Of a stretch of 64,000 bases of DNA, positions 35,901 to 50,030 are shown in pieces; the stretch's first letter is position 1; every line of letters starts with the position of its first letter. Under the pieces are notes generated by a model. That model made no database searches, was not told the origin of the DNA, and saw only the letters and a program-made list of their open reading frames with translations. The DNA is taken from assembly GCF_000315365.1 (NCBI RefSeq), contig NZ_CAOS01000007.1:1-64000 (forward strand). The letters are read 5' to 3'. Source of the DNA: Desulforamulus hydrothermalis Lam5 = DSM 18033. GTDB lineage: Bacteria > Bacillota > Desulfotomaculia > Desulfotomaculales > Desulfotomaculaceae. The translations under genes were made by a program, and so were the position numbers.

Positions 35901-36431
35901 CACCACCTGGTAGACGATAAAATTCACGCCCGCTCCACCGGCCCCTACTCCCTGGTTACCCAGCAGCCTCTGGGCGGTAAAGCCCAGTTCGGCGGCCAGC
36001 GGTTTGGTGAAATGGAGGTATGGGCCCTGGAAGCCTACGGAGCGGCTTATACCCTGCAGGAAATCCTCACCGTCAAGTCAGACGATGTGGTGGGACGGGT
36101 TAAAACCTATGAAGCCATTGTCAAAGGCGAAAATGTGCCTGAGCCGGGTGTGCCGGAGTCTTTCAAAGTGCTGATCAAGGAGCTGCAGTCGCTGGGGCTG
36201 GATGTAAAAGTGCTGTCAGAAAACGATGAGGAAATAGAAATTAAAGAAATTGAAGAAGACGTCACCGAAACAGCTAAGGAACTGGGCATTGACCTGCCGG
36301 AAGAAAGACGACTGGGTGATGTTAAACAGGAACACGACGAGGAAGACGAATACGAAGAAGAAAATGAGGAATTTGACGAAACCTTCCTCGAAGAAGCCGA
36401 AGAAGAATTCAGTTTGGATGACGAGGACTAA
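32985..36431 (+). CDS. rpoB: RNA polymerase beta subunit
   Basis: 1148 aa. [27 protein letters not shown] is the family start (given in part). The fork and rifampicin region shows [20 protein letters not shown] near residue 410, and [15 protein letters not shown] near 850 is in the catalytic half. The acidic C-terminal tail (about 1115-1148) is rich in Glu/Asp. ATG 32985 lies four bases after AAGGGG; ATG 32994 is the other possible start. rpoC follows 55 bases later. Confidence 0.97.
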
Positions 36432-36486
36432 AACAAGCGGTATTGAAACCATCTAGCGAAATCCGCTATAAGGGGGAGTAGGTCCT

Positions 36487-39400
36487 TTGTTAGAATTAAA
36501 TAATTTTGATAGCATTCGCATCGGGTTGGCTTCACCGGACAAGATCCGTCAGTGGTCCAGCGGCGAAGTGAAAAAACCGGAAACCATTAACTATCGCACC
36601 CTAAAGCCGGAACGGGACGGGTTGTTCTGCGAGAGAATTTTTGGCCCTACCCGGGATTGGGAGTGCCACTGCGGCAAATACAAGCGTCTCCGTTACAAAG
36701 GGGTAGTTTGCGATCGCTGCGGCGTCGAGGTTACCCGCTCCAAGGTGCGCCGCGAGCGGTTGGGCCATATAGAGCTGGCAGCCCCGGTATCCCATATCTG
36801 GTATTTCAAGGGCATTCCCAGCCGTATGGGGCTGCTGCTGGATATGTCCCCCCGGGCACTGGAGAAAGTTTTATATTTTGTGTCTTATATTGTGATTGAA
36901 CCGGGCGATACCCCCCTCCTGAAGAAACAGCTGCTGACCGAAACCGAATACAGGGAATACAAAGAGAAGTTCGGCAACAACTTTAAAGCAGGCATGGGCG
37001 CCGAGGCCATCAAGACACTGCTGCAGGAAATTGACCTTGAGGAACTGGCCCGTGAACTGCGTCAGGAACTGAAAGAAGTTTCCGGTCAGCGCAAGATCCG
37101 TGCCATTCGCCGTTTGGAAGTGGTGGAAGCCTTCAGAAAGTCCGGTAACCGCCCGGAATGGATGATTTTGGATGTGGTTCCCGTCATTCCCCCGGAGCTG
37201 CGTCCTATGGTGCAGTTGGACGGTGGGCGTTTTGCCACCTCCGATCTGAACGACCTGTACCGCCGGGTGATTAACCGTAACAACCGCTTAAAACGCTTAT
37301 TGGATTTGGGTGCCCCGGATATTATCGTGCGCAACGAAAAACGCATGCTGCAGGAAGCGGTGGATGCCCTGATTGATAACGGCCGCCGCGGCCGGCCGGT
37401 GACCGGTCCCGGCAACCGGCCGCTCAAGTCGCTGTCTGACATGCTGAAGGGCAAACAGGGTCGCTTCCGGCAAAACCTGCTGGGCAAAAGGGTTGACTAT
37501 TCCGGCCGTTCGGTAATTGTAGTGGGGCCCCATTTAAAAATGCACCAGTGCGGGCTGCCTAAAGAAATGGCCCTCGAGTTGTTCAAGCCCTTTGTCATGA
37601 AAAAACTGGTCAACGACGGCTACGCTCATAATATCAAAAGTGCCAAACGCATGGTGGAAAGGGTGCGGCCGGAAGTATGGGATGTCCTGGAAGAGGTTAT
37701 TAAGGAACACCCCGTCCTGTTAAACCGCGCACCAACCCTGCACCGTCTGGGCATCCAGGCCTTTGAGCCGGTGCTGGTGGAAGGCCGGGCCATTAAAATT
37801 CACCCGATGGTTTGCACCGCATACAACGCTGACTTTGACGGCGACCAGATGGCTGTACACGTTCCTTTGTCTGCTGAAGCCCAGGCGGAAGCAAGGCTAT
37901 TAATGCTGGCTGCCAACAATATTCTGAACCCCAAGGACGGTAAGCCGGTAGCCAGTCCCACCCAGGATATGGTCTTGGGCTGCTACTACCTCACCATGGA
38001 AAAAGACGGCGCCAAGGGCGAGGGCATGATATTTAAGGACGAAAACGAGGCCATTCTGGCCTACGACAACCATGTGGTTTCGCTGCACGCCAAAGTGACG
38101 GTGCGCCGGAAGAACGGCGAAAAGCTGCAAACCACGGTGGGACGTATTATTTTCAACGAGATTATTCCGGAAGAGTTGGGCTTTATCAACAAAGTTTGCG
38201 ATAAAAAGACTTTAAGTAAAATTGTCGCAGACTGTTACCGCAAACTGGGCAACGCTCATACGGCGGAGCTGCTGGACGGCATTAAGGAGCTTGGTTACAA
38301 ATTCTCCACCCGGGCCGGCATTACCATCGGGGTGGCTGATATTACAATTCCTGCGGCTAAGAAAGAAATTCTGGCTAACGCCGAAGAACAGGTTAACAAA
38401 ATTGAAAACCAGTTCCGCCGCGGTTTAATTACCGAAGACGAGCGATACCGGAAAGTTATCGGCGTCTGGAACGATGCCACCGATAAAGTTACCAAAGCTT
38501 TGATGGATACGCTGGACAGATTTAACAACGTTTACATGATGGCCACCTCGGGGGCCCGCGGTAACATTCAGCAAATCCGGCAGCTGGCCGGCATGCGGGG
38601 TCTGATGGCGGATCCTTCCGGGCGCATCATTGACCTGCCCATTAAAGCCAACTTCCGGGAAGGCCTGACAGTTTTGGAATACTTTATTTCTACCCACGGC
38701 GCCCGCAAAGGTTTGGCCGACACCGCCCTGCGCACCGCCGACTCAGGTTACTTAACCAGACGTCTGGTAGACGTGGCGCAGGATGTCATAGTCCGCGAAG
38801 AAGATTGCGGCACCGCCGAGGGCATTGAAGTCAGCGAAATCAGAGACGGCACTGAGGTTATTGAAAGACTGGCTGAACGCCTGGAGGGCAGGGTGCCCAT
38901 GGAACCGGTGGTTCATCCGGCAACCGGAGAAGTCATTATCTCCCGGGAGAAAGTGGAGCAGCACGGCCTCATTACAGCCGACGAAGCCCAAAAAATTGAA
39001 GAAGCAGGCATTAAAAAGGTTAAGATAAGGTCGGTCATTACCTGCAAAACCCGCTACGGCGTGTGCAAGCACTGTTACGGCAAGAACCTGGCCACCGGCG
39101 GCACCATTGATATCGGCGAAGCGGTAGGCATTATTGCCGCCCAGTCCATCGGCGAGCCGGGTACCCAGTTAACCATGCGAACCTTCCACACCGGCGGCGT
39201 GGCCGGCGATGACATTACCCAGGGTCTCCCCCGGGTAGAAGAGCTGTTTGAAGCCCGCCGGCCCAAGGGTCAGGCTATTGTGGCGGAAGAAGACGGTGTC
39301 ATCGCCGTCCGGGAGGTTAAAGGGCGTCGGGAAATCGAAATCACCAAGGATAACGGTGAAAAGAATGTCTACGCCGTACCCTACGGGGCCAGGTTGAAAG

Positions 39401-40050
39401 TGAAAGACGGCCAGCGGGTAGAGGCCGGGGATGAGCTTACCGAAGGGTCTGTCAATCCGCACGACCTGCTTAAAATTAAAGGCCCTGCCGGCGTGCAGAT
39501 TTATCTGCTGCAGGAAGTGCAGCGGGTCTACCGGCTGCAAGGGGTAGAAATTAACGATAAACATATTGAAGTAATGATTCGGCAGATGCTGCGGAAAGTG
39601 AAGGTAGAAGAGGCCGGCGACACCGATCTGCTGCCGGGCGGCCTGATTGATGTCTTTGAGTTTGAGGAGGAGAACCGCAAGGCCATCGAGGCCGGCAAAG
39701 AACCGGCAGTGGCCAAGCCGGTGCTGCTGGGTATTACCAAAGCATCCCTGGCCACCGACTCCTTCCTCTCGGCAGCCTCCTTCCAGGAAACCACCCGGGT
39801 GCTGACCGAAGCGGCCATTAAAGGCAAGACAGACCCGCTGTTGGGCCTGAAGGAGAACGTTATTATCGGCAAACTGGTACCTGCCGGCACAGGCATGTCG
39901 CGCTACCGCAACATAGAAGTGACCACCGGACAGCAGCAGGAACAGGAAGAAGATTTTGATCTGCTGCTGGCAGCCGGAGAACGCAACCGGGACTACCGGG
40001 TGCTGCCGGACGAAAAACTGGATGATTTCGACCTGTCTTTAGAAAAATAA
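36487..40050 (+). CDS. rpoC: RNA polymerase beta' subunit
   Basis: 1187 aa. The N-terminal zinc ribbon ([20 protein letters not shown] near 60-78), the catalytic [14 protein letters not shown] with its three Mg-binding aspartates near residue 448, and the second zinc site ([13 protein letters not shown] near 855) are intact. TTG 36487 is eight bases after AGGGGGAG. The extension after about residue 1150 is acidic. Confidence 0.97.
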
Positions 40051-40077
40051 CCCTGCCGGAACTAAAAATACAAATTA

Positions 40078-40106
40078 TTGACACGCGTTATAGTAAATGA
40101 TATTAT
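40078..40106 (+). promoter_or_regulatory. Promoter before ybxF-rpsL
   Basis: TTGACA 40078-40083, 17 bases, TATTAT 40101-40106. It drives the L7Ae-like gene and probably the str operon. Confidence 0.85.
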
Positions 40107-40140
40107 ATGTAAGTGTTTGATTGCAGGAGGGTGGATCACC

Positions 40141-40392
40141 ATGTCTTTGGAGCCTTTAAAGTCAGCACGCAAGAAAACTGTGGGGGCAAAACAGACATTA
40201 AAGGCTGTGGAAAAACTTCAAGCCAAGCAGGTGTACTGGGCGGCCGATGCCGAAGCCAGGGTGGTGGATCCTATCCTGCGGATTTGTTCCACAAAAAACA
40301 TACCCACTGTTAAAGTGGACAGCATGAAAGATTTGGGCAGAGCCTGCGGCATTGACGTAGGCTGTGCCATTGCCTCTATTACTGAGTTTTAA
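40141..40392 (+). CDS. ybxF: L7Ae/YbxF-family kink-turn RNA-binding protein
   Basis: 83 aa. GAKQTLKAVEKLQAKQVYWAAD near residue 14 and CSTKNIPTVKV fit the L7Ae/L30e/Gadd45 fold that recognises kink-turn RNA. B. subtilis YbxF occupies the same place between rpoC and rpsL. AGGAGGG SD before ATG 40141. A heptamer-repeat hairpin directly follows its stop codon. Confidence 0.92.
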   Translation: MSLEPLKSARKKTVGAKQTLKAVEKLQAKQVYWAADAEARVVDPILRICSTKNIPTVKVDSMKDLGRACGIDVGCAIASITEF

Positions 40393-40482
40393 CTCGAAGT
40401 TCGAGGTTCGAAGTTCGAAGTTCGGTCTAAAGAACCATTCGTTAGCATCGAACCTCGAACCTCGAGTCTCGAACCTCGACCA
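40393..40482 (+). repeat. Inverted arrays of heptamer repeats
   Basis: Left array 40393-40424 consists of heptamers of the form TTCGAAG/TTCGAGG; right array 40449-40479 of CGAACCT/CGAGTCT type. The right array is the reverse complement of the left with about five differences in 31 positions, so the transcript can fold into a ~31-bp imperfect hairpin with a 24-base loop. It fills the gap between ybxF and rpsL and ends 30 bases before the rpsL start. Confidence 0.85.
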
Positions 40483-40513
40483 AGCAGAACTTCGAGAGGA
40501 GGTGTAGAGAGAG

Positions 40514-40888
40514 ATGCCTACCATTAACCAGCTGATTCGCAAGGGCCGTGAGGAGGTTGTGTACAAATCCACAGCCCCTGCGCTGAAGGAATGCCCCCAA
40601 AAGCGCGGCGTTTGCACCAGGGTTTACACCACAACCCCGAAAAAGCCCAACTCTGCCCTGCGCAAGGTGGCCCGTGTTCGTTTAACCAACGGCATTGAGG
40701 TTACAGCATACATTCCGGGCATTGGCCACAACCTCCAAGAACACTCGGTAGTGCTTGTGCGTGGCGGTCGTGTTAAGGACCTGCCTGGCGTGCGTTATCA
40801 CATCGTACGCGGTGCGCTGGATTCCGCCGGTGTGCAAAACCGCAACCGCGGCCGTTCCAAGTATGGGGCCAAGCGTCCGAAAAAATAA
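40514..40888 (+). CDS. rpsL: 30S ribosomal protein S12
   Basis: 124 aa. [17 protein letters not shown] near residue 40 holds the lysines where streptomycin resistance arises (Lys-Pro-Asn-Ser loop), and [19 protein letters not shown] ends the protein. GAGGAGGTG SD. First gene of the str operon proper. Confidence 0.97.
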
Positions 40889-40894
40889 AGTTAA

Positions 40895-41422
<528 letters not shown>

Positions 41423-41434
41423 GGGAGGATCATT

Positions 41435-43513
41435 ATGGCCCGACAGTTTCCTTTGGAAAGAACCCGCAACATTGGTATAATGGCCCATATTGATGCCGGA
41501 AAAACCACTACCACAGAGCGTATTTTGTTCTACACCGGGAAAGTTCATAAGATTGGTGAAGTACACGATGGCGCAGCCACCATGGACTGGATGGTACAGG
41601 AGCAGGAGAGGGGCATTACCATTACATCTGCTGCTACCACTGCCCAGTGGAAAAATCACCGTATCAACATTATAGACACACCCGGGCACGTGGATTTTAC
41701 AGTTGAGGTAGAACGTTCGCTACGGGTGTTAGATGGTGCGGTGGCTGTGTTTTGTTCGGTCGGGGGGGTAGAACCCCAATCTGAAACTGTTTGGCGGCAG
41801 GCCGATAAATATGGCGTGCCCAGAATTGCTTACATCAACAAAATGGACCGCGTGGGCGCTGATTTCTTTAACGGCGTAAACATGATTAAAGACCGACTGG
41901 GTGCCAATCCGGTACCGATTCAATTGCCCATTGGCAGCGAAGATCAGTTCCGCGGCATTGTGGATTTGGTAACCAACAAAGCAATTATTTATGTCGATGA
42001 TCTCGGCACCAAGAGCGAAGAAACCGAAATCCCGGCCGATATGGCGGAGCTGGTGGCTGAATACCGGGAAAAGCTGCTGGAAGCGGTGGCGGAGTTTGAC
42101 GAAGAACTGATGGTGAAGTACCTGGAAGGCGAAGAGTTAAGTGAAGAAGAAATTAAACTGGCAATTCGCAAAGCCACCCTGGCGGTTAAAATTACCCCGG
42201 TACTGTGCGGTTCTTCGTTCAAAAACAAAGGTGTGCAGCCCTTATTGGACGCCATTGTGGATTACCTGCCGGCCCCCACTGATGTGCCGGCCATTCAAGG
42301 CATTAATCCCGATACCGGCGCTGCCGATCAACGGATTTCCAGCGACAGCGAGCCCTTTGCTGCGTTGGCCTTTAAGATCATGTCAGACCCCTATGTAGGC
42401 AAGTTGACCTACTTCCGGGTGTACTCAGGCGTATTAAACGCCGGGTCCTATGTGTACAACACCACAAAGGGTAAGAAAGAACGAATCGGCCGTATTCTCC
42501 AAATGCATGCCAACCACCGGGAAGAAATTCCTCAGGTGTTTGCCGGAGATATTGCCGCTGCTGTAGGACTGAAGGACACCACCACCGGTGACACACTCTG
42601 TGACGAAAAGCATCCCATTATTCTTGAATCCATGGAATTCCCTGATCCGGTTATTTCCGTGGCCATTGAACCAAAAACCAAAGCTGACCAGGACAAAATG
42701 GGTGTTGCCTTAACCAAACTGTCCGAAGAGGATCCTACCTTCAGGGTAAGCACCAATGAAGAAACCGGTCAGACAATCATCTCCGGCATGGGCGAGTTGC
42801 ACCTGGAAATTATCGTGGATCGACTGATGCGCGAATTTAAGGTGCAGGCCAATGTGGGAAGGCCCCAAGTGGCTTATAAAGAAACCATTCGTAAAGCCGT
42901 TAAGGCAGAAGGTAAGTTTGTGCGTCAGTCCGGCGGTAAAGGCCAGTACGGTCATGTGTGGATCGAACTGGAGCCGATGGAGCCGGGTGGCCCGGGCTAC
43001 GAGTTTGTTAATAAAATTGTCGGCGGCGTAGTACCCAAAGAGTACATTCCTGCCGTAGATGCCGGTATCAAAGAAGCTATGGAAAACGGTATTTTGGCCG
43101 GCTACCCCATGGTTGATATCCGGGCTACCATCTATGACGGGTCTTACCACGAGGTGGACTCCTCGGAAATGGCCTTTAAGATTGCCGGCTCGATGGCCTT
43201 TAAAAACGGAGCCGAAAAAGCTAACCCGGTATTGCTGGAACCCATCTTTAAAGTTGAAGTGGTGGTTCCGGAAGAGTACATGGGAGATGTTATCGGCGAT
43301 TTGAACAGCCGCCGCGGCCGTATTGAAGAAATGGGTCAGCGGGGTAACGCACGGGTTGTCACCGCTTACGTCCCCCTGGCAGAAATGTTTGGCTATGCCA
43401 CGGACCTGCGCTCCAAAACCCAGGGTCGTGGCACCTACACCATGCAGCACGACCACTATGAAGAAGTTCCCAAAAATATTGCCGAAGGCATTATCGCTAA
43501 GCGAAAAGGATAA
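41435..43513 (+). CDS. fusA: Elongation factor G
   Basis: Translocation GTPase, 692 aa. [15 protein letters not shown] is G1, [11 protein letters not shown]3, and NKMDR G4; domains III-V follow ([14 protein letters not shown] near 455). AGGGAGG SD. Standard position between rpsG and tuf. Confidence 0.97.
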
Positions 43514-43558
43514 GCAGAAAGATTCTTTCGCGTGTGAGCAAGGAGGAAAGTAATAACC

Positions 43559-44761
43559 ATGGCTAAGGCTAAATTTGAACGTACCAAACCCCACGTAAAC
43601 ATTGGTACCATCGGTCACGTTGACCACGGCAAAACCACCCTTACCGCCGCCATTACCGTAGTTCTGTCTACCACCGGCGGCGCCCAAGTTAAGCGTTACG
43701 ACGAAATTGACAACGCTCCCGAAGAGCGTGAACGCGGTATTACCATTAACACCGCCCACGTAGAATACGAAACCGGCAATCGTCACTATGCTCACGTTGA
43801 CTGCCCGGGTCACGCTGACTATGTTAAAAACATGATTACCGGTGCGGCCCAGATGGACGGCGCCATCCTGGTTGTATCCGCCGCTGACGGTCCGATGCCG
43901 CAAACCCGTGAGCACATCCTGCTGTCCCGTCAGGTAGGCGTACCCTACATTGTGGTATTCCTGAACAAAGCTGACATGGTAGACGATCCCGAACTGCTTG
44001 AGCTGGTGGACATGGAAGTGCGCGAACTGCTGAACTCCTATGAATTCCCCGGCGACGACACTCCCATTATTGCCGGTTCCGGCCTGAAAGCCCTGGAGTG
44101 CGGCTGCGGCAAGCGTGAGTGCGAATGGTGCGGCAAGATCTGGGAGCTGATGGATGCAGTAGACTCCTACATTCCCACCCCTGAGCGGGATGTTGATAAG
44201 CCCTTCCTGATGCCGGTAGAAGACGTGTTCTCCATTACCGGCCGTGGTACTGTGGCTACCGGTCGTGTTGAGCGCGGCCAAGTAAAAGTACAGGATGAAG
44301 TGGAAATCGTCGGTCTTAACGACAAGCCCCGCAAGACCGTAGTAACCGGCGTAGAAATGTTCCGCAAGCTGTTAGACTTTGCGCAAGCCGGTGACAACAT
44401 CGGTTGCCTGCTGCGCGGTGTTGACCGTAAAGAAATCGAGCGTGGCCAAGTGCTGGCAAAACCCGGCAGCATTAAGCCCCACACCAAGTACGAAGCAGAG
44501 GTATACGTCCTGACCAAAGAAGAGGGCGGCCGTCACACCCCCTTCTTTAACGGCTACCGTCCTCAGTTCTACTTCCGTACCACCGACGTAACCGGTGTGG
44601 TACAACTGCCGGAAGGCGTAGAAATGGTCATGCCCGGGGACAACATCAAGATGAAGGTGGACCTGATCACCCCCATCGCTATTGAGGAAGGCCTGCGCTT
44701 TGCTATCCGTGAAGGCGGCCGTACTGTAGGCGCCGGCGTAGTAACCGCCATCCGCGAGTAA
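43559..44761 (+). CDS. tuf: Elongation factor Tu (copy 2)
   Basis: Nearly identical to the copy at 25408: by eye six base differences over 1203, one of which changes residue 72 (Gly here). It carries the same four-cysteine insertion at Cys181-Cys191. This is the copy in the canonical str operon position. AGGAGG SD. The near-identity implies recent gene conversion between copies. Confidence 0.97.
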
Positions 44762-44764
44762 TTT

Positions 44765-44903
44765 TAGCCGGTCGTGGAACCGGCCCGGCGGGCGGCCAGT
44801 CCGCAGGAAACGCCGGGCTTCCGGTCGACTAGCGATGAAGTGGAAGGTTGCTCGCCTTGTGAGGTAATTTTCACGGAGCAGTCCGCAAATCGGACGAAGG
44901 GAG
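44765..44903 (+). ncRNA. S10-operon leader (L4-type leader)
   Basis: The 151-base gap before rpsJ is densely structured: GCCGGT/ACCGGC 44766-44783, CCCGGCG/CGCCGGG around 44784-44818, and GTCCG/CGGAC 44881-44895 overlapping the SD region. The block GTCGACTAGCGATGAAGTGG and then AAGGTTGCTCG resembles, as I recall, the conserved segment of Firmicutes S10 leaders that L4 recognises. Assignment by eye. Confidence 0.55.
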
Positions 44904-44912
44904 AAAGAAAGT

Positions 44913-45221
44913 ATGAAAAGCCAAAAAATAAGAATCAGGCTGAAAGCCTTTGATCATCAAATGCTTGACCAGTCCGCCGGCAAAATTGTTGAAACGGCCA
45001 AGCGGACCGGTGCTCAGGTGGCAGGTCCGGTACCTCTGCCCACCGAAAGAAGTGTTTACACCATTTTGCGTTCCCCCCACGTAAATAAAGACTCCCGGGA
45101 ACAGTTTGAAATGCGTGTGCACAAACGCTTAATCGATATCCTGGAGCCCACTCCCAAGACGGTTGACGCTCTGATGCGCCTGGATCTGCCTGCTGGCGTG
45201 GATATTGAAATAAAGCTGTAA
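44913..45221 (+). CDS. rpsJ: 30S ribosomal protein S10
   Basis: 102 aa. [20 protein letters not shown] near the start and [21 protein letters not shown] mark S10 (NusE). It opens the S10 operon after a structured leader. GAAGGGAG SD. Confidence 0.97.
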
Positions 45222-45240
45222 TCTGACCCCGAGAGTGTAT

Positions 45241-45275
45241 GTTAGAAGCCCTGGGGGGACCCACGGGCTTCTAAC
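45241..45275 (+). other. Strong hairpin between rpsJ and rplC
   Basis: GTTAGAAGCCC 45241-45251 pairs with GGGCTTCTAAC 45265-45275. The loop itself contains TGGG/CCCA, so the stem extends to about 15 bp with one bulged C. There is no T-tract, so a terminator is unlikely; it may be an mRNA processing or stabilising structure. Confidence 0.7.
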
Positions 45276-45303
45276 CTCTGACTATAACAGGAGGTGTTTT
45301 GTC

Positions 45304-45933
45304 ATGCCAAAAGGTATTCTTGGCAAAAAAGTGGGCATGACCCAAATTTTTAACGAAGCAGGTGTGGCCATCCCGGTAACTGTTGTAGAAGCCGGCCCCT
45401 GCCTGGTGGTACAGAAAAAAACTCCCGAGAATGACGGATATGCAGCCGTTCAGTTGGGCTTTGGCGAAAAACGCGAAAACCTGATCAACAAACCCATCAA
45501 GGGCCATCTGGCCAAGGCCGGCGTGCGTCCGGTGCGTTTTCTGCGGGAAATCAAGGTAGAAAACCTTGAAGAATATCAAGTAGGTCAAGAAATCAAAGCG
45601 GACATCTTTGCCGCCGGGGAAAAGGTGGACGTTGTAGGAACTTCCAAAGGACGCGGTTTTGCCGGCGGCATTAAACGCCATAACTTCCACCGCGGACCAA
45701 TGGCCCATGGTTCAAAATATCACCGTCGGCCCGGTTCCTCCGCAGCCAAAGGCCCTGCCCGAACCTTTAAAGGCAGAAAGCTGCCCGGCCACTATGGTGT
45801 TGAACGGGTAACCGTACAAAACCTGGAAGTTGTTAAGGTGGATGCCGAACGCAACTTGCTGGCCATTAAAGGTGCAGTACCCGGCCCAAGGGGCGGCCTG
45901 TTACTGATTAAAAACAGCGTCAAGGCCAAGTAG
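45304..45933 (+). CDS. rplC: 50S ribosomal protein L3
   Basis: 209 aa. [17 protein letters not shown] start, [23 protein letters not shown] near residue 115-140 (the loop reaching the peptidyl transferase centre, quoted in part). ATG 45304 follows AGGAGGTG. S10 operon order S10-L3-L4-L23. Confidence 0.97.
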
Positions 45934-45966
45934 CGGTGGCGCAGCGAAAGGAGGACTGTGAATCCA

Positions 45967-46587
45967 ATGCCTAAAGTAGCTTTATATAACGTCAACGGCG
46001 AACAGGTGGGCGAAGTGGAGCTGAAGGACGAAGTGTTCGGCATCGAGCCCCACGAATCCGTCCTGCATGATGCCGTAACCATGCAGCTTGCCAACCAGCG
46101 TCAAGGTACCCATGATACCAAAACCAGAGCAGAGGTCAGCGGCGGCGGACGCAAGCCTTGGCGCCAAAAGGGCACCGGCCGTGCCAGAGTAGGTTCCATC
46201 AGATCTCCTCTTTGGCGTAAAGGCGGCACCATTTTCGGACCCCATCCGCGTGATTACTCTTTCTCCTTGCCCAAGAAAGTACGCCGGCTGGCTCTGAAAT
46301 CCGCGCTTTCCAGCAAAGTTAAAAGCAATAACATTATTGTATTGGATGCCCTTACCATAGATGCTCCCAAAACCAAAGAAATGGTGCGCATCCTGAACAA
46401 CCTGAACGCTAACAAGGCGCTGGTTGTAACAGCCGAGCGGGATGTTAATGTGGAAAAATCCGCTCGCAACATTGCCGGGGTAAAACCCTTAAAAGCTGAA
46501 GGCGTTAATGTTTATGACCTGTTAAAGTACACCAAACTGGTTATTACCAAGGACGCCGTGGCTAAGATCGAGGAGGTGCTGGCGTAA
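45967..46587 (+). CDS. rplD: 50S ribosomal protein L4
   Basis: 206 aa. [19 protein letters not shown] near residue 60 is the extended loop lining the exit tunnel. Likely autoregulator of the S10 operon through the leader at 44765. ATG 45967 gives [11 protein letters not shown] 45958, nearer the SD, is the alternative. Overlaps rplW by one base (TAATG). Confidence 0.96.
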
Positions 46588-46874
46588 TGAAAAATCCGCG
46601 CGACATCCTCATCAAGCCGGTGGTTACCGAAAAAAGTACCCGTTTATTAGCCGATAACAAATACACCTTTATTGTTGATTTGAAAGCTAATAAGACCGAA
46701 ATTAAACAGGCTGTTGAGGATATCTTCAAGGTCAAGGTGGAAAAGGTTAACACCATGCGGGTGAAGGGCAAACTTAAGCGTGTGCGCCAATTCATCGGCA
46801 GAACACCTGAACGCAAAAAAGCCATTGTTACCTTGCGAGAAGGCGACAAGATCGAGATCTTTGAAGGACTGTAA
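46587..46874 (+). CDS. rplW: 50S ribosomal protein L23
   Basis: 95 aa. [16 protein letters not shown] and [19 protein letters not shown] are family signatures. It forms the docking site for trigger factor and SRP at the tunnel exit. Translationally coupled to rplD. Confidence 0.97.
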
Positions 46875-46888
46875 GGAGGGAAGCCCAG

Positions 46889-47713
46889 GTGGCAGTAAAA
46901 TCTTATAAACCTACCTCACCTGGCCGCCGGTTTGTTACCGTCCCCGACTTTAGCGAGATCACCAAGACCAAACCTGAAAAATCTCTGCTGGAGCCTCTTA
47001 AAAAGAACGGAGGACGCAACGCCCAGGGCCGCATTACCGTACGGCACCAGGGTGGTGGCCACAAGCGGATGTACCGCATTATTGATTTTAAGCGCAACAA
47101 AGACGGTATTCCGGCTAAAGTTGCAGCTATTGAATACGATCCTAACCGTTCCGCCCGCATTGCCCTGCTGCACTATGTGGACGGTGAAAAGCGCTATATT
47201 ATTGCTCCCGTAGGCCTGGAAGTTGGCATGACCGTTGAATCGGGCCCCAATGCAGACATTAAAGTGGGTAACTGCCTGCCCCTGCGCAACATTCCGGTGG
47301 GCACCATGGTACACAACGTTGAACTGTACCCGGGGGCCGGCGGCCAACTGGTTCGCTCTGCCGGTGCTGCTGCCCAGTTAATGGCGAAAGAAGGCAAGTA
47401 TGCTAACCTGCGCCTGCCTTCCGGCGAAATGCGGCTGGTGCTGCAGGAGTGCCGCGCCACTGTCGGCCAGGTTGGCAACCTGGAACACGAAAACATTACC
47501 ATTGGTAAAGCCGGTCGGGCCCGTCACCTGGGTATCAGACCCACAGTACGCGGTAAAGTTATGAACCCGGTTGATCACCCCCACGGCGGTGGTGAAGGAC
47601 GTAACCCCATCGGCCGTCAACCCTCTACTCCTTGGGGTAAACTGGCAATGGGCGTTAAGACCCGCGGTAAGAAAAAGAGCGATCGCCTGATAGTTAAACG
47701 CCGCAGTAAATAA
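46889..47713 (+). CDS. rplB: 50S ribosomal protein L2
   Basis: 274 aa. [19 protein letters not shown] start; [15 protein letters not shown] near residue 222 carries the conserved histidine near the peptidyl transferase centre. GTG start at 46889; AAGGAGGG SD. Confidence 0.97.
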
Positions 47714-47783
47714 AGGCATGGGGTCGTTGTACGCCCGGCCCCGTGAATTTGGAACATGAGCATGATCCGGAAGGAGGTTCATA

Positions 47784-48062
47784 ATGGCTCGTTCTCTTAA
47801 AAAAGGACCGTTTATTGACGATCACCTGTTAAAAAAAATTGAGCAGATGAATGAGAAGGGTGAAAAAAAGGTTATCAAAACCTGGTCCCGCCGTTCCACC
47901 ATCTTCCCGCAGATGATTGGCCATACCATTGCAGTATATGACGGCCGTAAGCATATTCCGGTATATATTACAGAAGATATGGTTGGACACAAACTGGGTG
48001 AATTTGCACCTACCCGTACCTACAGAGGACACGCCGGCGAGCGTTCCACTGGTGTTAAGTAA
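47784..48062 (+). CDS. rpsS: 30S ribosomal protein S19
   Basis: 92 aa. [17 protein letters not shown] start and [22 protein letters not shown] are diagnostic. GGAAGGAGG SD. Normal place between L2 and L22. Confidence 0.97.
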
Positions 48063-48082
48063 CCATAAGAGGGGGCTAAACG

Positions 48083-48424
48083 ATGGAAGCGAGAGCAGTC
48101 GCCAAATTTATCCGCGTATCCCCGCGTAAGGCCCGCATGGTAGTAGATTTGATTCGGGGCAAAAAGTTAAACGAGGCCTTGGCCATCCTGCGCTACACCC
48201 CGAACAAAGCTGCCGCTGCCGTTACCAAGGTAGTCAAGTCTGCTGCTGCTAACGCGGAACATAACTATGACATGGATAAAGATGAATTGGTCATTACCAA
48301 AATTTATGTAGACCAGGGTCCCAGCCTGAAGCGTATGATGCCCAGAGCCATGGGCCGTGCGGATATTATTAAAAGAAGAACCAGCCACATTACAGTTGTG
48401 GTTTCGGACAAAAAGGAGGGATAA
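48083..48424 (+). CDS. rplV: 50S ribosomal protein L22
   Basis: 113 aa. [21 protein letters not shown] near residue 11 and [21 protein letters not shown] (the tunnel-lining hairpin, macrolide-linked) near the end. Confidence 0.97.
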
Positions 48425-48428
48425 TTGC

Positions 48429-49094
48429 GTGGGTCAGAAGGTTAACCCAAAGGGTTTGCGGATTGGCATAATCAAAGACTGGGAAGGTAAATGGTTTGCT
48501 GATAAGCGCAATTACTCCAATTTGCTGATTGAAGACGTTAAGATTCGTCAGTTTATCAAAGGCAAGCTTTACCAGGCCGGTATTTCTAAAACACAAATTG
48601 AGCGGGCGGCTAACCGGGTTAAGATTTCTATTCATACCGCTAAACCGGGCATTGTAATTGGTCGTGGCGGTGCTGAAGTGGAAGCTCTTAGAAAAGAGCT
48701 GGAAAAAATGACCGGCAAGCAAGTTCATGTTAACATTGTAGAAATTAAAAATCCGGAAGTTGATGCCCAACTGGTGGCTGAAAACATTGCTGCACAACTG
48801 GAGAAACGGGTGGCATTCCGCCGGGCCATGAAGCAAACCGTTCAAAGATCCCTCAGAATGGGCGCCAAGGGCATTAAAATTGCCTGCAGCGGTCGCTTGG
48901 CCGGCGCCGAAATTGCGCGTACCGAATGGTACAGCGAGGGAAAAGTACCCCTGCATACCCTGCGTGCAGATATAGACTATGGGTTTGCCGAAGCCAATAC
49001 AACCTACGGTAAAATTGGCGTTAAAGTATGGATTTACAAAGGAGAAGTTTTACCGGAAGCGAAGAAAACCGCAGCCGGTCAAGGAGGCGAGTAA
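48429..49094 (+). CDS. rpsC: 30S ribosomal protein S3
   Basis: 221 aa. [13 protein letters not shown] start, a KH domain with the loop [13 protein letters not shown] near residue 75, and the S3 C-terminal domain. GTG 48429 is eight bases after AAAGGAGGG; the upstream frame overlaps rplV and is not used. Confidence 0.96.
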
Positions 49095-49097
49095 CCG

Positions 49098-49532
49098 ATG
49101 CTTATTCCGAAAAGGGTTAAGTACCGCAAGCAGCACCGTCCCCGTGGCAACGGCGGTGTTACTAAAGGCGGTAGAGAAGTAAGCTTCGGCGAATACGGGA
49201 TCCAGGCCCTGGAAGCAGGTTGGATTACTAACCGTCAAATCGAAGCTGCTCGTATTGCCATGACCCGTTATATCAAACGTGGTGGTAAAGTATGGATTCG
49301 CATTTTCCCGGATAAGCCCATCACCCAAAAACCGGCTGAAACCCGCATGGGTTCCGGTAAGGGTGCTCCGGAGCACTGGGTGGCTATAGTTAAGCCGGGC
49401 CGGATTATGTTTGAGGTTGCCGGGGTTCCCGAAGCAACTGCCCGTGAAGCCATGCGCTTGGCTATGCACAAGCTGCCTGTTAAATGCAAGTTCGTAAAAC
49501 GTGGGGAAGTAGGTGAAGCCAATGAAAGCTAA
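49098..49532 (+). CDS. rplP: 50S ribosomal protein L16
   Basis: 144 aa. [16 protein letters not shown] start and [20 protein letters not shown] near residue 72, the loop close to the peptidyl transferase centre. It overlaps rpmC by 11 bases. Confidence 0.97.
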
Positions 49533-49719
49533 GGAAATCAGAGATCTTACTGATGCCGAATTGGCTAAGAAGATAGATGACTCCAAAGACGAGCTCTTCA
49601 AGTTAAGATTTCAATTGGCAACCGGACAATTGGATAACCCCATGAAGATTAAAGAATGCAAGCGGAAAATTGCTCGTTTAAAAACTGTACAAACCGAGAG
49701 AAAACTTGGCATTCGCTAA
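49522..49719 (+). CDS. rpmC: 50S ribosomal protein L29
   Basis: 65 aa, a two-helix protein: [18 protein letters not shown] start and [19 protein letters not shown] 49522 lies inside the end of rplP, so translation is coupled. Confidence 0.96.
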
Positions 49720-49760
49720 GCCGGTAACCGGTAATTGTCATCGACCAGGAAGGAGGTACG

Positions 49761-50030
49761 ATGGTGGAGCAAGGGCGTAATATGCGTAAGGTTCGCCAGG
49801 GCAGAGTGGTAAGCGATAAAATGGAAAAAACTGTTGTGGTAGCAGTTGAGGATCGTGTGCGCCACCCGCTGTACAACCGCACCATTCGTAAAACAAAGAA
49901 ATTTAAAGCCCATGATGAAGAAAACAGCTGCCGCATTGGCGATATTGTTCGTATCATGGAAACCCGCCCGCTGTCCAAGGATAAGCGCTGGCGTGTTGTT
50001 GAAATCCTGGAACGGGCAGAACAACTGTAA
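49761..50030 (+). CDS. rpsQ: 30S ribosomal protein S17
   Basis: 89 aa. [22 protein letters not shown] and [19 protein letters not shown] are the family motifs. AAGGAGG SD before ATG 49761. Confidence 0.97.

Follow-up and report, generated by a model that had tools for sequence, protein, structure and literature searches.

The window analysed here, a stretch of 64,000 nucleotides from Desulforamulus hydrothermalis Lam5 = DSM 18033, carries an inverted array of heptamers between ybxF and rpsL, at the entrance to the str operon, and the question raised by this locus is what kind of sequence it is and how it came to stand between two genes of the translation apparatus. An earlier sequence-only reading had described a hairpin with an imperfect stem of about 31 bp, had considered an mRNA processing site, a polarity element or a self-spreading repeat, and had proposed a genome-wide search for tandem units. 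We have compared the locus with the rRNA genes of the same genome, with the corresponding junctions of the genus and with S23 genes of the order and the phylum.

The hairpin between ybxF and rpsL

Because the ybxF-rpsL spacer is 30 nt in three relatives, the bounds of the insert can be placed at about 40393-40483, which gives 91 nt starting on the base right after the TAA of ybxF. The order from 5' to 3' is the ybxF stop codon, a heptamer array, a 24-nt loop, the complementary array, the Shine-Dalgarno sequence and rpsL. The features of the region are as follows.

40078..40106, forward strand: promoter-like site TTGACA-17-TATTAT upstream of ybxF; weak (1 found, 0.9 expected in shuffles)
40141..40392, forward strand: ybxF gene (L7Ae family); the insert begins on the next base
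40393..40483, forward strand: heptamer-repeat hairpin insert; spacer 121 nt here against 30 nt in three congeners, leader fold z -4.7
40394..40424, forward strand: left arm of TTCGARG units, from the arm search; 40393-40424 is identical in the congener G001
40425..40448, forward strand: loop, with no ORF for S23 (PF05635); 3 substitutions and 1 gap in comparison with G001
40449..40479, forward strand: right arm of complementary units, from the arm search
40497..40504, forward strand: Shine-Dalgarno sequence AGGAGGTG of rpsL; TTCGAG just upstream is found also in the 30-nt spacers
40514..40888, forward strand: rpsL (ribosomal protein S12), from the gene call

The hairpin proved to be real. Its two arms, each 31 nt long and separated by a gap of 24 nt, have a complementarity of 84%, and in an alternative register 40392-40411 pairs with 40448-40467 at 95%. 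For the leader (40385-40520) the predicted folding energy is -52 kcal/mol; shuffled sequences average -36.0, none of 200 does equally well, and z is -4.70. All five matches to TTCGARGTTCGARG with at most one mismatch in the 64-kb window lie in the hairpin (0.05 expected). The unit is best written as TTCGANN, with positions 6 and 7 as the free letters; the earlier description, in which units differ at one position, is right in that mostly position 6 varies at this hairpin, but both positions vary. The five mismatches of the 31-bp register are three A.C and two of G.U type, so the arms differ by transitions with no co-variation, and the A.C mismatches between the arms speak against the idea that the units mutate or convert in concert.

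Since the promoter-like site lies upstream of ybxF, transcription would run through the insert. The hairpin corresponds to no Rfam family; in 36000-50000 Rfam gives a single match with E of 0.5 or less, the S10-Clostridia leader (44827-44897) at the tuf-rpsJ junction, and none to rRNA. This leader is preceded by a GC-rich inverted repeat after tuf (both within 44740-44900), and the inverted repeats of relatives at that place differ in sequence. Masking of the Shine-Dalgarno sequence by the hairpin was considered and rejected, since that sequence is predicted to be poorly accessible whether or not the insert is there, with no change between the two cases.

Inserts in rRNA genes and S23 genes with heptamer ends

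In the genome of the strain, a draft of 16 contigs from which further copies may therefore be missing, three TTCGARG units with at most two mismatches gave 26 matches (reversed control 0). The 48 exact two-unit TTCGANN matches in the draft all belong to seven hairpins and lie only in rRNA inserts (44) and in the window hairpin (4). The rRNA hairpins, located by Rfam and alignment, comprise a 16S V1 insert on three contigs, a first 23S insert on two and a second 23S insert on one. In E. coli coordinates, by alignment, the 16S insert falls between 50 and 111, and the 23S inserts (rrlH) fall between 541 and 552 and between 1160 and 1185; in the usual numbering these sites are helix 6 of 16S and helices 25 and 45 of 23S. 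Helices 25 and 45 are named for the Salmonella intervening sequence (IVS) in PMC2672173.

The helix-45 insert of the strain holds the sole match to 23S_rRNA_IVP (S23, PF05635) in the draft genome (E 3.6e-32, with one in-frame TAA; S23 matches PDB 2gsc at E 3e-14), and with its S23 it is a classic rRNA IVS. The window copy has the complementary termini and the long stem of an IVS; it stands between ybxF and rpsL and not inside an rRNA gene, and it has neither an S23 ORF nor a remnant of one. Its loop also lacks AAGACCCC, a motif of the helix-25 insert of the same genome, and the argument for descent is therefore carried by the arms and the heptamer, both of which are short.

Another loop motif, AAGACCCCAAAGGAATGC, is present in the helix-25 insert of the strain and, with changes, in the helix-25 insert of G006 and in the 16S inserts of G006 and G008. 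It was tried as proof of kinship for the window loop and dropped, being a dispersed genus repeat: copies in either orientation, frequently in clusters, occur between genes of several Desulforamulus genomes (L236, L251, L237, L244 and others), as well as in rRNA inserts. In one 16S locus of the strain (L011, G000:C11:241175), the 5' end at about 1176-1208 has a run of C with a restriction-site-like string where 16S sequence is expected, and it looks like an adaptor or assembly artefact.

A series of insert lengths was observed in the congener G008, where six of the eight rRNA stretches could be measured between fixed helix-45 anchors and gave 483, 483, 172, 172, 117 and 106 nt, the two uncounted ones being a stretch that missed an anchor and a stretch without 23S. 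The 483-nt copies encode S23, and the short copies keep the arrays with the middle missing; the helix-45 inserts of this genome can be ordered by progressive deletion, with the S23-bearing form at one end and the bare hairpin at the other. Helices 25 and 45 are empty in the viewed copies of G003, G004 and G007, and helix 25 is empty in the measured copies of G008. The helix-45 tip of G003 reads AATTCGAAAGAATT. In G006, a rearranged rRNA fragment (L211, G006:C1:358000-362500) joins 16S and 23S pieces and retains the helix-25 insert.

Of 113 genomes in the order, 50 have a match to PF05635, as do 73 of 398 in the phylum. The flanks of S23 genes were scored by an inverted repeat (score at least 14) and by a self-match of the arm at period 7 (at least 0.5), using the best-scoring match per genome, which is not a random sample and leaves out most weaker matches and fragments; 5 of 29 order loci (shorter than 3200 bases) and 1 of 30 loci from the phylum beyond the order (short) were dropped before counting. 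Among these best-scoring loci, inverted heptamer arrays bound S23 at 42 of the 53 tested (L262-L290, L295-L324), 22 of 24 in the order and 20 of 29 in the phylum beyond it. For the 22 order loci with arms of at least 19 nt, the mean self-match reached 0.75 at period 7, whereas the remaining periods between 4 and 12 gave 0.16-0.26, and all 22 scored highest at period 7; beyond the order this held for 22 of the 25 loci whose arms are at least that long. Failing loci number 2 of 24 in the order and 9 of 29 beyond it, among them L322 with a period of 11 nt. The same test passed none of 25 ybxF flanks and none of 106 shifted places in the same S23 loci. The heptamer differs from element to element, while the two arms of one element match each other.

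With a blastn match to E. coli 23S no more than about 1.5 kb away as the criterion, 5 of the 24 and 2 of the 29 loci are in 23S rRNA, and the remaining 46 of 53 are outside; heptamer arrays were found at 35 of these 46 and at all seven inside. S23 with heptamer arms was detected also on plasmids, in 4 of the 10 records fetched out of 33 (Azospirillum, Geminocystis, Nostoc and Calothrix; right flank 200 nt for plasmid loci, 160 elsewhere), and of the other six, two have an inverted repeat scoring above 14 with a low period-7 match and four have neither. Plasmid S23 genes lie between cas6 and cas4 in Pseudanabaena galeata and between cas10 and a Cmr3-family gene in Picosynechococcus (L326, L331). 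In G003, whose S23 element has arms of TTCGCTN, tandem units of this heptamer occur also away from the gene (L236, L251), and none were found in the compared loci, not a random sample, of five other genus members. The genome G050 has twenty C-terminal S23 fragments of the same length and score, 11 of which start at base 2 of a contig, as if they were part of a repeat breaking the assembly.

Congeners and other explanations of the junction

The ybxF-rpsL spacers were compared in nine members of the genus Desulforamulus, from G000 (the strain itself) to G008. The hairpin insert is present in G000 and G001, and the spacer of Desulforamulus putei DSM 12395 (L132) is the same as that of G001. An insert-free spacer of 30 nt is found in G002, G005 and G008. 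The spacer of G003 has 121 nt with decayed heptamers and a strong fold (-56.5 kcal/mol, z -9.6), that of G004 has 83 nt and one lone CTCGAAG unit, perhaps a relic of an insert or an intermediate stage, and those of G006 and G007 have 52 and 49 nt. Filled and empty sites are thus present among close relatives, as for MITE or REP elements, and no target-site duplication is visible by eye in the compared spacers of the genus. Exact conservation in relatives had been named as a point against a repeat element; 84 of 92 aligned columns of the insert region do match G001, but the insert is absent in three congeners. The tree joins G000 and G001 firmly and does not resolve the fork with G006 and the G008 group, so that the distribution may reflect either a single early insertion followed by losses or two separate insertions.

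Arrays of the same unit occur at other junctions of the genus. G008 and G005, both among the congeners with a 30-nt ybxF-rpsL spacer, have TTCGANN arrays in inverted orientation in the spacer from tuf to rpsJ; those of G008 are weak as a hairpin (20 of 36 Watson-Crick). With gene names read from translations, single arrays were found in G001 at ecfT-truA, trxA-lgt and ATPase-dapF, and one in G003 between two transketolase genes. The place directly after the gene of the kink-turn-binding YbxF, to which the sequence-only reading had drawn attention, looks incidental, since arrays of this kind come after tuf in two congeners (G008 and G005). The proposal of a self-spreading repeat, made in the same reading, has gained support: rRNA genes and further operon junctions in the genus carry heptamer hairpins built from this unit, and sites are filled in some members and empty in others.

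The arrays might also have grown in place with no mobile element, an ancestral TTCGAG (or TTCGAA-like rRNA tips) being multiplied by slippage and inverted by template switching, and this we regard as improbable. Repeats could have started to grow locally from the TTCGAG that even the 30-nt spacers contain, but in comparison with these spacers both arms and the loop come together. The single unit in the 83-nt spacer of G004 and the helix-45 tip of G003 would suit such growth, yet no clear stepwise series is seen in the nine genus members, and S23 elements elsewhere show the same architecture with unrelated heptamers. Tandem TTCGANN arrays are found in many phyla (at least 120 stretches in a scan of named genomes), and among the matches listed S23 is present at 1 of 120 loci and an inverted partner within 450 nt at 21 of 120; this mostly S23-free occurrence agrees with growth in place, and the identity of the heptamer alone is therefore not diagnostic across phyla. 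In Desulfosporosinus sp. I2 (L108), several intergenic TTCGANN arrays are seen by eye around a similar loop, one of them just before a minD/ParA-like gene.

Still more doubtful is the view that the hairpin serves the str operon as a leader element in regulation or processing, with rapid turnover of its sequence but a hairpin retained at the spot. The strong fold of G003 despite its decayed heptamers is in keeping with this, as are the CCCTTAC-type hairpins at the same junction in other families (e.g., L023, L031, L033, L034, L037 and L038) and the inverted repeat seen by eye ahead of the S10-Clostridia leader position in each of six tuf-rpsJ spacers of the genus. However, three congeners have the 30-nt spacer only, z is above -2 in 15 of 22 folded ybxF-rpsL spacers, and no Rfam family is matched. 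Between G000 and G001, the insert has changed at 7 of 91 positions against 121 of 343 fourfold sites (p 3e-8), which would point to a maintained function, but its divergence equals that of two neighbouring spacers (12 of 143, p 1.0). The left arm has 0 changes in 32 positions, and the right arm with the edge has 4 in 35. Constraint is ambiguous, since the pattern fits a constraint common to str-operon spacers and does not single out the hairpin. Selection on the RNA strand would show in the ratio of G.U to A.C; with symmetric pairing this is 57:42 over 17 hairpin regions, in one of which (23S5S_G008d) the intended hairpin was not recovered, and per locus it is 4:4 in the window, 3:3 in G001, 7:0 in G003 and 0:5 in an ITS hairpin.

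An intrinsic terminator or attenuator is very improbable, since the stem is strong but is followed by no U tract and a pattern scan finds no terminator at the hairpin; this last result bears also on the polarity element suggested earlier.

A probable non-autonomous copy of an IVS-type element

We consider that the window hairpin is probably an S23-less, non-autonomous copy of the element known in rRNA genes as IVS; the heptamer unit, the arm architecture and the genome are common to it and the rRNA inserts of the strain. In the complete element, an S23 (PF05635) gene would be flanked on both sides by arrays, inverted to each other, of a heptamer particular to that element, and S23 is, by co-occurrence, a candidate for the mobilising partner protein. 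The insertion into the str operon would have occurred in an ancestor of the source species and Desulforamulus putei, and it may have been tolerated because the gap between stop codon and Shine-Dalgarno sequence, like the tip of an rRNA helix, can accept a self-folding RNA. An RNA stem of 20-31 bp would fold in the mRNA and be cut by RNase III as in rRNA IVS, and the cut would split ybxF from the rpsL-rpsG-fusA-tuf mRNA or trim the leader of that mRNA; a gene for RNase III is present in the genome, and by analogy with rRNA IVS such processing of the window hairpin, the mRNA processing site of the earlier reading, seems plausible.

A wider reading, which we put forward tentatively, is that these elements may form a widespread and undescribed class of small mobile elements for which rRNA IVS are only one habitat. 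Each element would be addressed by its own heptamer, and bare hairpins would be its non-autonomous derivatives, on their way into the mRNAs of ribosomal proteins. According to PMC10053308, Avd is essential to retrohoming of diversity-generating retroelements, and PF05635 is similar to it. This resemblance suggests that movement may go through RNA: RNase III would free the folded hairpin, and a reverse transcriptase would copy it back. With two RVT_1 matches in the genome, such a retro-mobile route appears possible.

Several known systems share parts of this architecture. Cyanobacterial STRR are tandem arrays of 7 nt, mainly direct repeats, and MITE and REP hairpins are short, dispersed and non-coding with inverted ends. 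The window hairpin differs from the latter in that its arms are tandem heptamers, no target duplication is seen and no transposase is known.

Close to the elements described here are rRNA IVS, known for more than 25 years (PMC4990558). The helix-45 IVS of Coxiella burnetii has an S23 ORF, GACAGAT heptamers and a 28-bp stem and is cleaved by RNase III in vitro (PMC4990558). It shares with the elements described here the long stem from complementary termini, the heptamer repeats and the optional S23 ORF, and its helix-45 site is that of the strain's own rRNA copy; the window copy is unlike it in lying in a protein-coding operon, without S23 and with a different heptamer. The Coxiella heptamers are described there upstream of one S23 ORF and not as inverted arrays of a general element (PMC4990558). 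The 5S, 16S and 23S expansion segments of the Desulfotomaculum group belong to the same bacterial group and are likewise self-pairing modules inserted in several rRNA genes, but the main text of their description has neither 'repeat' nor 'heptanucleotide' (PMC7812874). The TAACTGA repeats of Beggiatoaceae are tandem 7-nt arrays, some of them upstream of ribosomal-protein genes and fusA; they are mainly direct repeats of one fixed heptamer, and the main text has neither '23S' nor 'intervening sequence' (PMC4679880). The 23S inserts of Nostoc and Deinococcus have inverted ends and relatives elsewhere in the genome, but they encode a transposase, and the parts of the source at hand mention no heptamer arrays or S23; for the Photobacterium IVS the same source reports no copies beyond the 23S genes, and the Photorhabdus insert has no homologue there (PMC2672173). 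Within the open literature, in excerpts and with most subscription journals outside its scope, heptamers joined with an IVS were found for Coxiella only (PMC4990558), and no description was found of S23 genes bounded by heptamer arrays outside rRNA.

The wider architecture of S23 plus heptamers is more surprising than the window hairpin itself. If the complete element is S23 between heptamer arrays, mostly outside rRNA, the puzzle of the IVS becomes a testable question on a small mobile element, namely whether S23 binds the hairpin of its own heptamer and whether the hairpin moves. In the present case such a hairpin lies inside an essential ribosomal-protein mRNA, the expression of which it could affect.
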